DNA of 64,000 bases. Source: an uncultured Flavobacteriales bacterium (GTDB lineage: Bacteria > Bacteroidota > Bacteroidia > Flavobacteriales_D > Parvicellaceae). The notes under the pieces are model-generated. The model saw only the letters and a list, made by a program, of their open reading frames with translations. It had not been told where the DNA came from and made no database searches. The position numbers were made by a program, and so were the translations under genes. This document shows, piece by piece, positions 51,476 to 56,981 of this stretch; positions within the stretch are counted from its first letter, which is position 1; every line of letters starts with the position of its first letter. The stretch is taken from positions 1 through 64,000 of the forward strand of contig CALSRM010000003.1 in NCBI GenBank assembly GCA_943788755.1, in the 5' to 3' direction.

Positions 51476-51520
51476 TGTAACATTTGTTATATTCGGAAAC
51501 AAAATAGTTGCCTATATTTG
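51476..51520 (+). promoter_or_regulatory. Crp/Fnr-type operator and promoter of the DUF983-crp unit
   Basis: TGTAAC-ATTT-GTTATA at 51476-51491 is a near-perfect dyad (half-sites of 5-6 bp, 4-bp spacer). The -7 box TATATTTG is at 51513-51520. The dyad centre is 36.5 bp upstream of the end of the box, roughly -41.5 to the expected start site, the classic class II activator position. The identical arrangement recurs at 54381-54425. Confidence 0.65.
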
Positions 51521-51537
51521 ATTAATCATTCGGTTCA

Positions 51538-51924
51538 ATGCTCAAAAAAACAAGACTCTATAGTATTTTAAATTTCAAGTGCCCGAGGTGCCATAAAGGG
51601 GAATTTTTAGAATCTAGGAGAGTTTACAATCTTAAAAAAGCCGGAAACCTTAGAGAAAAATGTGCCTGTTGTGATTTAAAATACTCTCGTGAACCTGGGT
51701 TTTATTTCGGGGCGATGTTTGTCTCTTACGCATTAGGTGTAGCGTTATTTGTTACAATATGGGTGGCAACAGCTGTATTATATCCAGAATATTCTTCAGA
51801 ATTATTATTGGGAATAATTATAGGGTCAATTCTTATTTTAGGCCCCTATTTATACGCTCTTTCAAAAATAATTTGGGCTAATTTATTCTTTCACTATGAA
51901 GATACTGCACTAAAGAAAAATTAG
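51538..51924 (+). CDS. DUF983 membrane protein with zinc ribbon
   Basis: 128 residues. An N-terminal four-Cys ribbon (CPRCHKGEF and CACCDLKYS) is followed by two membrane helices (about 58-82 and 88-112). DUF983 is common in Bacteroidota and proteobacteria; function is unknown. Its stop is directly followed by the ATG of the Crp/Fnr gene (0 bp), so the two are co-expressed from the dyad-bearing promoter. Confidence 0.88.
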   Translation: MLKKTRLYSILNFKCPRCHKGEFLESRRVYNLKKAGNLREKCACCDLKYSREPGFYFGAMFVSYALGVALFVTIWVATAVLYPEYSSELLLGIIIGSILILGPYLYALSKIIWANLFFHYEDTALKKN

Positions 51925-52557
51925 ATGATAGAAGAATTGAAAGAAAACTACGGTTTTTTATTTGAAGAAGATTTGATTACTGAAATTGGTCAGGTAGGCC
52001 TCATTAAGTCATTAAAACGAGGAGAGACACTTATGGAAATAGGAAGTGCTATTAGGTACATGCCTCTTCTATTTAAAGGCTCCATAAAAGTTGTACGAGA
52101 AGATAGCGATGGAAATGAATTACTCCTCTATTTTTTAGAAATAGGAGATACTTGCGCTTTTTCTTTATCATGTTGTATTGGTAATAAAAAAAGCGAAATT
52201 AAAGCTATCATTGTCGAAGATGCCGAAATGGTGTTAATACCAGTCCAAAAAATGGAGGAATGGATTGGTAAATACAAAACATGGAAAAATTTTGTATTTG
52301 AAAGCTACAATATTCGCTTAGAAGAAATGTTAGAAACCATCGACACCTTAGCCTTCATGAAAATGGATCAAAGGCTCTACAAATTTTTAACCGATAAAGT
52401 AAAACTAATTGGATCCAGAAATATTGAAAACACGCATCAACAAATTGCACATAACTTGAATACTTCTAGGGTCGTAATTTCTCGACTTTTAAAGCAACTT
52501 GAGAATGAAAAAAAGATTAGGTTGCATCGCAGTAGAATTGAAGTACTTGATTTCTAG
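51925..52557 (+). CDS. Crp/Fnr-family transcriptional regulator
   Basis: 210 residues. N-terminal cyclic-nucleotide-type beta-barrel (about 20-120, ELLLYFLEIGDTCAFSLSCCIG), a long dimer helix and a C-terminal winged helix with the HTH HQQIAHNLNTSRVVISRLLKQLE (about 170-195). There is no N-terminal Cys cluster as in Fnr, so an iron-sulfur sensor is unlikely; Cys residues in FSLSCCIG could be redox- or persulfide-sensitive, which is speculation. Dyad sites before its own operon and before the CstB-like operon suggest autoregulation and control of the downstream sulfur genes. Confidence 0.9.
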   Translation: MIEELKENYGFLFEEDLITEIGQVGLIKSLKRGETLMEIGSAIRYMPLLFKGSIKVVREDSDGNELLLYFLEIGDTCAFSLSCCIGNKKSEIKAIIVEDAEMVLIPVQKMEEWIGKYKTWKNFVFESYNIRLEEMLETIDTLAFMKMDQRLYKFLTDKVKLIGSRNIENTHQQIAHNLNTSRVVISRLLKQLENEKKIRLHRSRIEVLDF

Positions 52558-52601
52558 GCTACAATAGTGGATTATGACTTCAATAAAGCATGTTACTTTT
52601 G
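52557..52601 (+). promoter_or_regulatory. sulP promoter with a decayed Crp/Fnr-like dyad
   Basis: The -7 box TACTTTTG is at 52594-52601. Centred 36.5 bp upstream of its end (52564.5) is GGCTAC-AATA-GTGGAT, which keeps only the central AC-N4-GT and one more base of the dyad seen at the other two promoters. Phasing is exact but the sequence match is weak. Confidence 0.4.
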
Positions 52602-52645
52602 TTTTTAATTTGCCAATATTACCATTAACTTCGTTCTTACAATAA

Positions 52646-54385
52646 GTGAATCTTTTAAAAAAATACATACCTATCCTATCGTGGCTGCCAGACTACAACA
52701 AAGCAGCTTTTTCTGGGGATATATCTGCTGGACTTACCGTTGGCGTGATGCTTATCCCGCAAGGTATTGCCTATGCCATGATTGCCGGTCTTCCGCCCAT
52801 TTATGGTTTATATACGGCTATGACGCCGCAAGTTATCTATGCTATTTTTGGAACTTCTCGTCAATTATCGGTGGGACCTACCGCAATGGACTCGTTAATT
52901 GTTGCTGCCGGAATTACATCTATAGCAACTGTTGGCCCTGACAATTATATAGCTGCTGCAATTCTGTTAGCGTTTCTTATGGGGCTTATGCAATTGGCTT
53001 TTGGGATTTTTAAACTTGGTTTTTTGGTCAACTTTTTATCGAAGCCCGTAATAAGTGGATTCACATCTGCTGCGGCAATAATTATTGGTTTAAACCAATT
53101 AAAGCATATTTTCGGCATAGAAATTCCCAGAAGTAACCAAGCACATTCTTTATTGTATGACACAGGAATAACAATCAATTCAACTAACCTAATTACTCTT
53201 TGCCTTGGAATAGGAACCATTCTTACAATTATTATCTTAAAAAAGTATTTTAAAAAAATACCTGCAGCCTTAACTTCAGTTGTATTAGGTATCCTAATCG
53301 TTCAATTTTTTCATTTGGATTTATATGGTGTACACATTATTAGAGATATCCCTACCGGACTTCCAAGTCCCTCAATCCCTGATTTTACCCAAAATTATTT
53401 TAATGACCTATTACCCTTGGCACTCACCTTATCTTTAATTGCATTTATGGAAGCTATATCGCAGGCAAAAGCCATAGAAGATAAGCACAATGATTATAAA
53501 GTAGATGCGAATCAAGAACTAATTGCACTTGGGCTAAGTAATATTGTAGGTTCTATTTTTAAGAGCTATCCTTCTACAGGAGGCTTTTCTCGAACCGCAG
53601 TAAATGATCAAGCCGGAGCAAAAACGGGAATGTCGTTTATTATAGCAGCTGGGGTTGTAGCATTAACATTACTATTCCTAACCCCATTATTTTATTATTT
53701 ACCAAAAGCAGTGTTGGGTGGGATTATCATCGTTGCTGTGATGGGGCTCATTAACATTAAATACCCCGTCAAACTTTGGAAATACAAGAAGGACGATTTA
53801 ATTATGCTCTTGGGAACATTTGCCGTAACGTTAACCATCGGAATTAAAGAGGGAATTATTGTTGGAGTAATTCTATCCTTGGGGTTCTTGATTTTTAGAA
53901 GTACGCGACCTCACATTGCTGAATGTGCGAGAATTGAAGGAACGAATTATTTCAAAAATGTAAAAAGATTCGATAATACAAAAGGACGAAAAGATGTTCT
54001 CATATTACGTTTTGATGGACAACTTTATTTTGCTAACACCAATTATTTTAAGGACCAATTAAATGATATGATTGCAAAAAAAGGCCCTACTCTAAAACTG
54101 GTAATATTAAACGCCGAAGCTATTAACCACCTGGACTCAAGTGCTGTTCATATGATGGATACGACGATAAAAGAGCTTTGCAAAAAAGAAATCTACTTTG
54201 CGGTTGCTGGAGCAATAGGACCAGTAAGGGATATTATTTTTAACAGTGGGTTATCTGAAACAATTGGAAAAGAGCTAATGTTTGCCGAAGTCAATGAAGC
54301 TTTAGAATGTTTAGAAGAAGATGAAGCAATGGACTTTGAAAGAATTTGCAAACGAATTGCTTTACAAAATAACAGTAATTTGTAA
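52646..54385 (+). CDS. SulP-family inorganic anion transporter
   Basis: 579 residues from GTG at 52646, which starts the family N-terminus MNLLKKYIPILSWLPDYNK. The SulP motif GLTVGVMLIPQGIAYAMIAGLPPIYGLYTA is intact, about a dozen membrane helices follow, and a STAS domain closes the protein (about 430-560, LVILNAEAINHLDSSAVHMMD). Substrates in the family include sulfate and bicarbonate; the neighbouring sulfur-oxidising gene favours sulfate or sulfite efflux or uptake (inference). Confidence 0.93.
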   Translation: MNLLKKYIPILSWLPDYNKAAFSGDISAGLTVGVMLIPQGIAYAMIAGLPPIYGLYTAMTPQVIYAIFGTSRQLSVGPTAMDSLIVAAGITSIATVGPDNYIAAAILLAFLMGLMQLAFGIFKLGFLVNFLSKPVISGFTSAAAIIIGLNQLKHIFGIEIPRSNQAHSLLYDTGITINSTNLITLCLGIGTILTIIILKKYFKKIPAALTSVVLGILIVQFFHLDLYGVHIIRDIPTGLPSPSIPDFTQNYFNDLLPLALTLSLIAFMEAISQAKAIEDKHNDYKVDANQELIALGLSNIVGSIFKSYPSTGGFSRTAVNDQAGAKTGMSFIIAAGVVALTLLFLTPLFYYLPKAVLGGIIIVAVMGLINIKYPVKLWKYKKDDLIMLLGTFAVTLTIGIKEGIIVGVILSLGFLIFRSTRPHIAECARIEGTNYFKNVKRFDNTKGRKDVLILRFDGQLYFANTNYFKDQLNDMIAKKGPTLKLVILNAEAINHLDSSAVHMMDTTIKELCKKEIYFAVAGAIGPVRDIIFNSGLSETIGKELMFAEVNEALECLEEDEAMDFERICKRIALQNNSNL

Positions 54386-54425
54386 CTTTAGTTACAGTAT
54401 AATTTAACGCAATGATTTATCTTTG
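54381..54425 (+). promoter_or_regulatory. Crp/Fnr-type operator and promoter of the persulfide operon
   Basis: TGTAAC-TTTA-GTTACA at 54381-54396 is a perfect 6-4-6 inverted repeat, overlapping the sulP stop codon. TATCTTTG (-7 box) is at 54418-54425, and the ATG of the dioxygenase is 18 bp beyond. The dyad centre is 36.5 bp from the box end, identical to the crp promoter. Confidence 0.7.
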
Positions 54426-54443: not shown

Positions 54444-55853
54444 ATGAAAATAGAACAAATATATACTGGATGTTTAGCGGAAGCTGCTTACTACATCCAA
54501 TCGCAAGGAGAGGCTATAATTATTGATCCATTGCGCGAAACTTCACCATACATTGAAAGAGCGGAAAAAGATGGCGCTACAATTAAGTACGTTTTCTTGA
54601 CGCACTTTCACGCTGACTTTGTTTCTGGGCATGTTGATTTAGCTAAAAAAACGGGTGCTACTATTGTTTTTGGGCCCAATGCAAAAGCTGATTTTGATTT
54701 TCACACCGGCACAGATGGTGAAGAATTCAAAATTGGTGAATTAACGCTAAAACTATTGCACACTCCTGGTCATACAATGGAATCTTCAAGTTACTTACTA
54801 TTGGATAAAGAGGGCAAAGAAAACTGCGTATTTACAGGAGATACTCTTTTTATTGGAGATGTTGGAAGACCAGATTTAGCTGTAAAATCCGACATTACTC
54901 AAGAAGGTTTAGCGGCACATTTATTCGATTCATTGCGCAGTAAGTTAATGACGTTACCTGACAGCGTTATTGTTTACCCTAGTCACGGTGCAGGTTCTGC
55001 TTGTGGTAAAAACATGAGTAAGGAAACATTCGATACTTTAGGGCATCAAAAAGAAGTCAACTATGCTTTAAGGACTGACATGACTAAAGATGAATTTGTA
55101 AAAGAAGTTCTTACTGGATTAATTGCTCCTCCAGCCTACTTCCCTAAAAATGTTGCTATGAATAAATCAGTAAACACGGAGATAGATAACATTTTAAAAA
55201 CGGGAACAATTGCCCTTACTATTGACACATTTAAAGCAATGGCCGATAGCGAAGGAGCAATGATCATTGATACGAGACATCAAACTTCTTTTACTAAAGA
55301 GCATATACCTGGGTCAATATTTTTTGGAATTGATGGTGGTTTTGCGCCATGGGTTGGAGCACTTGTGTCCGACATTAATCAGCCTATTATAATAGTTGCT
55401 GATGAAGGTCGGGAAGAAGAAGTTGTAACACGATTATCTCGAATTGGATATGATAACTCGTTAGGATATTTAAAAGGAGGAATAGCAGCATGGAAAGAAG
55501 CTGGGTTAGATACAACCTCTATCATTTCATTGCAGCCTTCAGAAATAGTTGAATTAGTAAATGCGGAGAAAAGTAACTTAGTTGATATAAGAAAACCATC
55601 TGAGTTCCTATCAGAACACGTTGAAGAAGCTGTAAATGCACCATTAGATGTTATTAATGATCAAATGGATGATTTATCTAAAGATATTACTTACCACATT
55701 CACTGCGCAGGTGGATATCGTTCGGTAATTTATATCTCAATTATGAAATCAAGAGGGTATCACAATCTAATTGACATTGCTGGAGGGTATGGTTTAATTA
55801 GGGAAACAAAAGGGTTTCATCTCTCTGAGTATGTTTGTCCCACAACATTATAA
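54444..55853 (+). CDS. CstB-like persulfide dioxygenase with two rhodanese domains
   Basis: 469 residues. Residues 1-about 245 are an ETHE1/PDO-type metallo-beta-lactamase fold with THFHADFVSGH, the HTPGHT motif and FTGDTLFIGDVGRPDL. Two rhodanese domains follow. The first (about 260-355) has Asp/Glu in its catalytic loop (VADEGREEEV) and no Cys, so it is a pseudo-rhodanese. The second (about 365-460) has catalytic Cys421 (IHCAGGYRS). This order is that of Staphylococcus aureus CstB, which oxidises low-molecular-weight persulfide and releases thiosulfate. A cytoplasmic sulfide/persulfide detoxification role follows from the family. It heads a five-gene operon. Confidence 0.9.
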   Translation: MKIEQIYTGCLAEAAYYIQSQGEAIIIDPLRETSPYIERAEKDGATIKYVFLTHFHADFVSGHVDLAKKTGATIVFGPNAKADFDFHTGTDGEEFKIGELTLKLLHTPGHTMESSSYLLLDKEGKENCVFTGDTLFIGDVGRPDLAVKSDITQEGLAAHLFDSLRSKLMTLPDSVIVYPSHGAGSACGKNMSKETFDTLGHQKEVNYALRTDMTKDEFVKEVLTGLIAPPAYFPKNVAMNKSVNTEIDNILKTGTIALTIDTFKAMADSEGAMIIDTRHQTSFTKEHIPGSIFFGIDGGFAPWVGALVSDINQPIIIVADEGREEEVVTRLSRIGYDNSLGYLKGGIAAWKEAGLDTTSIISLQPSEIVELVNAEKSNLVDIRKPSEFLSEHVEEAVNAPLDVINDQMDDLSKDITYHIHCAGGYRSVIYISIMKSRGYHNLIDIAGGYGLIRETKGFHLSEYVCPTTL

Positions 55854-55858
55854 ATAAT

Positions 55859-56104
55859 ATGAAAATCACGTTTGAAATAGAAAACTTAAAATGTGGCGGC
55901 TGTGTTAAAACAGCAACCGAAGGAGCAGCAGCTATGGATGGAATCTCCAATGTTATTGTTTCACTTGAAAACAATTCTATTACATTTGAAAGTTCTGATG
56001 CAGACTCTATTAATATAGTAGAAGAAAAACTAAAAGAAATTGGTTATCCAAAAAAAGAAGAAACCTCTTTATTAGACAAAGCAAAAGCATTCTTAAATAA
56101 TTAA
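55859..56104 (+). CDS. Heavy-metal-associated (HMA) domain protein
   Basis: 81 residues from ATG at 55859, 5 bp after the previous stop (an earlier in-frame start at 55835 overlaps the dioxygenase gene). A single ferredoxin-like HMA fold with LKCGGCVKT (metal-binding Cys pair, CGGC) and a short helical tail. In other genomes such proteins pass copper or bind thiols; beside the persulfide genes its Cys pair might carry sulfane sulfur instead, which is speculation. Confidence 0.85.
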   Translation: MKITFEIENLKCGGCVKTATEGAAAMDGISNVIVSLENNSITFESSDADSINIVEEKLKEIGYPKKEETSLLDKAKAFLNN

Positions 56105-56128: not shown

Positions 56129-56404
56129 ATGAGTATAGAAAACATAGACATTAAAGAAGCAACGATTATCGACGTGAGAACGCCTGTAGAGTTTATGATG
56201 GGAAATGTAGAAGGGTCAATAAACATTCCTTTAGATGAAGTTTCTTCAAGAGTTGAAGAATTTAAAAATATCGAAGGAAACCTTGTTTTATGTTGTGCTA
56301 GCGGAGGTAGAAGTGGTCAAGCGACACTATTTCTGCAGCAAAATGGACTTTCCAATGTGCACAACGGTGGCGGTTGGCAAACAGTAGACTTGCTAATGAA
56401 ATAG
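56129..56404 (+). CDS. Single-domain rhodanese
   Basis: 91 residues. The rhodanese fold has IIDVRTPVEFMMGNVEGSINIP and the active-site loop CCASGGRSGQA with catalytic Cys56 (C-x4-R). It transfers sulfane sulfur between thiols; within this operon it probably supplies or removes persulfide for the dioxygenase. 24 bp after the HMA gene and 24 bp before the thioredoxin gene. Confidence 0.92.
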   Translation: MSIENIDIKEATIIDVRTPVEFMMGNVEGSINIPLDEVSSRVEEFKNIEGNLVLCCASGGRSGQATLFLQQNGLSNVHNGGGWQTVDLLMK

Positions 56405-56428: not shown

Positions 56429-56722
56429 ATGTCCAAATTCAGTGACTTAATAAATGGAGATACGATTGTCTTAGTCGACATGTTTGCGGAATGGTGTGGC
56501 CCTTGTAAAACGATGGCTCCTATTTTAAAAGATGTTAAAAGTAAGGTGGGTGATAATGTGAAAATTATAAAAATTGACGTTGACAAAAACCCGCAGGCTG
56601 CAGAGAAATTTCAAGTTCGAGGCGTTCCTACTTTCATTCTTTTTAAAAAAGGAAAACTGCTTTGGAGGCAATCAGGAATAATCCCAGGAGATCAATTAGT
56701 TGAATTAATCAATTCACATTAA
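56429..56722 (+). CDS. Thioredoxin
   Basis: 97 residues, classical thioredoxin with WCGPC in MFAEWCGPCKTMAPIL, the cis-Pro loop VRGVPTFILFKKG and the C-terminal helix. No signal peptide, so cytoplasmic. Thioredoxin releases sulfide or persulfide from rhodanese and protein thiols, fitting the operon. The small membrane-protein gene follows after 1 bp. Confidence 0.93.
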   Translation: MSKFSDLINGDTIVLVDMFAEWCGPCKTMAPILKDVKSKVGDNVKIIKIDVDKNPQAAEKFQVRGVPTFILFKKGKLLWRQSGIIPGDQLVELINSH

Positions 56723-56723
56723 A

Positions 56724-56981
56724 ATGAAGGGGTCGAGCCAACCTTTTTATAAAAACATAACCTTGTGGCTCATAGCTTCATTAACCCTTGGGTTAGCTCC
56801 TTTTGCCCCGCCTCACATTTGGGGTAAATTAAAATGGATATATGGTGGAGGTGCTTTTGCTGGAGAACAACCGATGCAACCGATGGACTGGTTTGATTTA
56901 GTACTTCATGGCACACCATGGCTAATGCTCTTTATTTCATCAGGCATAGCAATAAAAACTAAATTGAAAACTAAAAGTTAA
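56724..56981 (+). CDS. Small two-helix membrane protein in the persulfide operon
   Basis: 85 residues with hydrophobic helices at about 12-28 and 60-78, separated by a loop containing HIWGKLKWIYGGG and PMDWFDLVLHGTPW. I recall similar short proteins being annotated loosely as transporter components, but no function is established. Its ATG is 1 bp after the thioredoxin stop, making it the last gene of the operon. Confidence 0.72.
   Translation: MKGSSQPFYKNITLWLIASLTLGLAPFAPPHIWGKLKWIYGGGAFAGEQPMQPMDWFDLVLHGTPWLMLFISSGIAIKTKLKTKS

Follow-up and report, generated by a model that had tools for sequence, protein, structure and literature searches.

The locus lies in a window of 64,000 nucleotides, which is the whole stretch of DNA that was analysed. 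Its genes and promoter elements, all on the forward strand, are as follows.

51476..51491, +, dyad TGTAAC-ATTT-GTTATA (TGTAACATTTGTTATA), predicted operator of the DUF983-crp unit, with its centre 36.5 bp before the end of the box, at about -41.5
51513..51520, +, TATATTTG, putative sigma-A -7 box of the DUF983-crp promoter, assigned from the TAnnTTTG consensus in F. psychrophilum (PMC9723704)
51538..51924, +, DUF983 membrane protein (PF06170), first gene of the regulator's unit
51925..52557, +, crp, Crp/Fnr-family regulator of 210 residues (PF00027, PF13545) with C77-x5-C83-C84 in the phosphate-binding-cassette region
52591..52606, +, weak dyad TGTTAC-TTTT-GTTTTT upstream of sulP
52652..54385, +, sulP, SulP-family anion transporter with STAS domain (TIGR00815, 502 bits; PF00916, PF01740)
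54381..54396, +, dyad TGTAAC-TTTA-GTTACA (TGTAACTTTAGTTACA), predicted operator of the persulfide operon
54418..54425, +, TATCTTTG, putative -7 box of the persulfide operon
54444..55853, +, MBL-rhodanese-rhodanese protein of 469 residues (PF00753, two PF00581), CstB-like persulfide dioxygenase/sulfurtransferase
55862..56104, +, HMA-domain metal-binding protein (PF00403)
56129..56404, +, single-domain rhodanese (PF00581)
56429..56722, +, thioredoxin (TIGR01068, above cut-off)
56724..56981, +, small membrane-protein-like ORF, last gene of the persulfide operon

The start of sulP was set at 52652, while the ORF listing has 52646. The product of 54444–55853 has a CstB-like architecture: two rhodanese domains come after an MBL domain, and the second of the two, which contains the loop HCAGGYRS, has the catalytic cysteine. 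Compared with PDB entries, it aligns nearly end to end with 3tp9 (E 2e-67) and 3r2u (E 4e-60), the latter of which we take to be staphylococcal CstB, and it also matches human ETHE1 (4chl, E 2e-16). The small ORF at the end of the operon has no family match among NCBIfam/TIGR and Pfam profiles, and it is kept beside thioredoxin in five genomes (G001, G002, G003, G010, and G017).

We then inspected the promoter elements. Re-reading of the sequence found both 6-4-6 dyads and both TAnnTTTG boxes where the original prediction had placed them, and the centre-to-box-end distance of 36.5 bp that it had given was measured for the dyads at 51476 and 54381 alike. The second dyad overlaps the sulP stop codon. 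For the searches, the phased site was defined as the 14-mer GTAAC-N4-GTTAY, a gap of 22, and TAnnTTTG. The weak dyad before sulP had been predicted to share the AC-N4-GT core and the identical phasing. The core is present, but the phasing is rejected: no TAnnTTTG ends at 52635, as a distance of 36.5 bp would require, and the only box-like octamer downstream of this dyad (TAACTTCG, 52626–52633) gives 34.5 bp. In relatives, perfect and in-phase sulP sites occur at the orthologous place (L081, position 9042) and in L133.

In the host genome (3.17 Mb, five contigs), GTAAC-N4-GTTAY occurs at 10 distinct places. The bare dyad is not enriched there, with 15 matches as against 41 for the reversed control, and was rejected as evidence because its frequency is at or below that of the control. 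At four of the 10 places, TAnnTTTG follows at a gap of exactly 22, the chance of the octamer at a given position being about 6e-4 as estimated from base composition. Hence, of the combination for which a genome scan had been proposed, the dyad by itself does not rise above control and the phased arrangement does stand out; the phased dyad and box, not the bare dyad, is the signal.

The four phased host sites are those at 51476 and 54381 and two on contig C1, at 564972 (minus strand) and 566450 (plus strand). The former C1 site ends 20 bp before a molybdopterin sulfite-oxidase-like gene, which is followed in a sulfite-dehydrogenase operon (L001:251-2953, corresponding to C1 562250-564952) by a haem-protein-like gene and the gene of a two-domain rhodanese (lipoprotein). 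Downstream of the site at C1:566450 come a small ORF, which is interrupted, and a histidine kinase gene. The prediction of a regulon of three adjacent promoters is supported as to the sulfur regulon but not as to its extent, as the distant sulfite-dehydrogenase operon and one further promoter are included. Orthologues of the sulfite dehydrogenase were found in only six genomes and were therefore dropped as a general test; the exact site is present in the host alone, and in G025, from another family, a rhodanese-sulfite dehydrogenase operon has the site with one mismatch in the box. The operon at C1 562250-564952 is missing in all three congeners. The membrane-protein-like ORF behind C1:566450 (L001:4517-4660, near C1 566516) has one in-frame TGA, and may be a pseudogene, an assembly error, or an unusual reading.

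The spacing is conserved in relatives. When gaps of 7 to 37 were allowed, the dyad and box are separated by 22 in 41 of 52 pairs from 60 genomes of the order (hand count). The same gap is found in 85 of 94 pairs (gaps 5–59) from 80 named loci, which are the surroundings of regulator homologues in Flavobacterium, Maribacter, Kordia, Salegentibacter, and others. These 80 loci contain 138 GTAAC-N4-GTTAC dyads and 85 phased sites, compared with 0–1 and 0, respectively, in Markov sequences. In 197 genomes of the class, phased matches number 48 as against three in the reversed control. Data on transcription start sites in F. psychrophilum place the TAnnTTTG box at -12 to -5 (PMC9723704), which puts the dyad centre at about -41.5, the position of a class II activator. 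The predicted class II geometry of the phased sites is thus strongly supported by the fixed spacing to the sigma-A box in relatives together with the published start sites.

These comparisons also bear on whether the dyads are chance palindromes beside ordinary promoters, with no regulatory role. Chance would agree with the bare dyad being no commoner than its control in the host genome, as well as with the combined pattern at up to two mismatches, which falls below its control there and is uninformative. Against this, the phased combination is far above expectation in relatives and recurs before orthologous genes, and positions on which the search pattern placed no constraint are conserved as well (T-49 in 92%, A-46 in 96%, and T-37 in 89%, with T-34 and G-33 conserved more weakly). 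The spacing histogram and the Markov control refute the chance reading, which we regard as hardly credible.

The genes behind the sites are largely those of sulfur metabolism, and conservation upstream of orthologues, on which the original prediction had been staked, was found. In the named loci, and allowing one mismatch, phased sites lie upstream of the gene for the persulfide dioxygenase/rhodanese in 49 of 63 cases, of TauE in 33 of 50, of YeeE in 10 of 13, and of SulP in five of 11; 12 sites lie before DUF983 and 10 before crp itself. In-phase sites are located at the orthologous place before DUF983 in six genomes (G001, G002, G010, G017, G023, and G031). The remaining sites of the named loci, as judged by eye, are mostly before rhodaneses, peroxiredoxin-like genes, and further TauE genes, and targets across the order also include SQR, thioredoxin, and rhodaneses by the same kind of inspection.

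In the host genome, which is 97% complete, no Crp/Fnr protein other than the crp product was detected. This product has a cNMP-binding-like N-terminal domain (PF00027) and a C-terminal HTH_Crp domain (PF13545), both above cut-off, and its AlphaFold model (mean pLDDT 85) has the Crp fold and matches the structures of CRP, NtcA, and FNR. With E. coli CRP and its class II promoters it shares the fold, the dyad geometry (TGTGA-N6-TCACA in E. coli and TGTAA-N6-TTACA here), and the centre at -41.5. It differs in that the half-site is TGTAAC, V183 stands at the position aligned with CRP Glu181, the cassette has cysteines, and the promoter is of the Bacteroidota TAnnTTTG type. In a hand alignment to the E. 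coli cassette, GDTCAFSLSCCIGNKKS lacks Glu72 and has a lysine for Arg82, and the score against the NCBIfam CRP profile is 47 bits, below the cut-off of 266; these features do not fit a cAMP-responsive CRP. The best NCBIfam match is NtcA of cyanobacteria (E 4.6e-13), which has a valine at the same position of the recognition helix and a GTA-N8-TAC dyad centred at about -41.5 (PMC3898017). The score of 49.3 bits is, however, far below the NtcA equivalog cut-off of 244.95, and NtcA is a 2-oxoglutarate sensor of nitrogen status with other targets and no cysteine motif. An N-terminal cysteine cluster of the FNR type, which binds 4Fe-4S, is absent, as the regulator has no cysteine before C77. In both sequence and fold, the nearest solved structure is PDB 3dv8, a Crp/Fnr protein of Eubacterium rectale with unknown function; it has C-x5-C at the same place, but belongs to another phylum and has a glutamate where the regulator has V183.

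Among 81 proteins, C77 and C84 are present in all 81 and C83 in 80, and in the recognition helix R182, V183, S186, and R187 do not vary. Distant homologues retain C77 and mostly C83. In a hand alignment, the three cysteines map to the phosphate-binding cassette, which in CRP accommodates cAMP and which the AlphaFold model predicts with less certainty than any other part. V183 was considered as a recognition code for GTA over GTGA, as in NtcA, and is suggestive only, because homologues with E183 in G027 and G038 also accompany GTAAC sites.

The sites and the regulator occur together. Among 40 relatives, exact phased sites are present in 18 of the 20 that have a homologue and in two of the 20 that have none (hand tally; Fisher 5e-7), and class-wide in 32 of 124 genomes with a homologue as against three of 73 without (p 7e-5); both p-values are optimistic since phylogeny was left uncorrected. 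The low share of homologue-bearing genomes with an exact site in the class-wide set, 32 of 124, counts against the regulator reading. Fifteen of the 48 class-wide sites, including the locus under study as one, lie within 3 kb of a homologue, with about 0.1 expected. The predicted control of the regulon by the adjacent Crp/Fnr protein gains support from this co-occurrence and from the sites before orthologous genes, and the comparative data strongly support such a sulfur regulon.

Three genomes of the same genus (G001, G002, and G003; loci L076, L077, and L078) have the same gene order but for crp, which is cleanly absent from its place between DUF983 and sulP. The rest of these assemblies, which are 82–94% complete, yielded no close homologue; G003 does encode a Crp-like protein, but a distant one that lacks the cysteine motif. 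Among the operators, the one before DUF983 in G003 has lost a single base, GTTGC replaces GTTAC before the dioxygenase in all three, the sulP site is degraded or absent, and some other sites are intact. The partial operator decay fits a recent loss of the regulator. The absence of crp together with operator decay makes the three genomes a natural experiment on regulator loss.

Since some of the congener sites are intact, a transcription factor other than the neighbouring Crp/Fnr protein might read them. The retention of sites in G001–G003, which lack a detectable close homologue, would agree with this, as would G019, with six exact sites and no homologue match. Such a reader is nonetheless unlikely in view of the incompleteness of the congener assemblies, the partial decay of their sites, the lack of a detected second Crp/Fnr protein in the host genome, and the class-wide co-occurrence and proximity of site and homologue.

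Taken together, the dyads are quite probably operators of the Crp/Fnr activator encoded at 51925–52557, which would control a class II sulfur regulon in response to sulfane sulfur. The DNA half of this circuit is well supported by sequence comparison. A dimer of the regulator would bind TGTAAC-N4-GTTACA with the dyad centre at -41.5 and would activate, in the class II manner, sigma-A promoters that have the TAnnTTTG box. The site before the regulator's own unit suggests autoregulation. Of the predicted products, the persulfide dioxygenase and rhodaneses would convert persulfide to sulfite, the unlinked sulfite dehydrogenase would oxidize sulfite to sulfate, and SulP (TauE or YeeE in relatives) would move sulfur oxyanions or thiosulfate.

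The signal is most likely reactive sulfane sulfur, as the targets remove persulfide and the effector pocket has conserved cysteines; it would be sensed via C77, C83, and C84, at the place of cAMP in CRP. The main rival is that the same DNA circuit responds to redox state, oxygen, NO, or a metal, Fe-S, or heme cofactor on the cysteines, with the sulfur genes belonging to a broader redox response. The Crp/Fnr relatives FNR, CooA, and HcpR employ such cofactors, heme binding being reported for HcpR and PgRsp (PMC12040651). Conserved cysteines in the Crp pocket could equally bind metal or sense redox, and, by eye, peroxiredoxin-like genes are among the targets and a CcoG-like gene is behind a site in G004. 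On the other hand, the commonest targets are genes for persulfide, sulfite, and thiosulfate, and the cluster ligands of FNR are in another part of the Crp/Fnr fold than the cassette. We regard a redox or cofactor signal as a real possibility, albeit a doubtful one. The sulfane-sulfur reading in its fullest form is proposed tentatively, as close to an even call: an undescribed Crp/Fnr clade, widespread in the class, may have turned the pocket into a thiol sensor of persulfide or polysulfide, and may control the oxidation of sulfide, persulfide, and sulfite through the phased class II site TGTAAC-N4-GTTACA.

The Crp fold, the class II geometry, and persulfide sensors of other families in other phyla are already known. 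FisR, BigR/SqrR, CstR, and MarR-type persulfide-responsive regulators control genes for persulfide dioxygenase, rhodanese, SQR, TauE, or YeeE (PMC7315123, PMC5823870, PMC11211675), which are the same kinds of target as in the present regulon. In contrast to the Crp/Fnr protein studied here, they are a sigma-54 activator or repressors of the ArsR, CsoR, or MarR family, from other phyla and with other operators. HcpR, PgRsp, and CrpPg of Porphyromonas are likewise Crp/Fnr proteins of Bacteroidota, but the available parts of the sources (PMC12040651, PMC6955866) assign them to nitrosative stress, redox/heme, and virulence, and report neither a sulfur regulon nor a TGTAAC-N4-GTTACA operator; the distinction is made by these descriptions and not by sequence. 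No description of the motif or regulon was found in the published literature, a weak argument as mainly open-access papers were covered, and the literature searched contained no persulfide-responsive regulator for Bacteroidota.

For a sulfur response, the circuit provides a candidate regulator with its operator consensus and targets, together with the exact geometry of the promoter, all of which can be tested in culturable species such as Flavobacterium limnosediminis, Maribacter, or Kordia. Marine and sediment habitats commonly contain Flavobacteriaceae and related bacteria, and the phased site could be used as a marker to predict sulfur-oxidation regulons in individual genomes. The findings also suggest a conversion of the Crp fold's cyclic-nucleotide pocket into a cysteine switch.

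Aside from the sulfur genes, a few sites precede other functions. In G004 (L117), the phased site before the CcoG-like gene, which relates to cbb3 oxidase assembly, has a second Crp-type gene about 9 kb away and may be part of another Crp/Fnr regulon. In a further family (f3), two genera (L108 and L112) have perfect phased sites before an efflux unit of TolC-like and membrane-fusion proteins, and two species of genus g22 (L098 and L099) have them before a large Kelch-like exported protein of about 540 residues.
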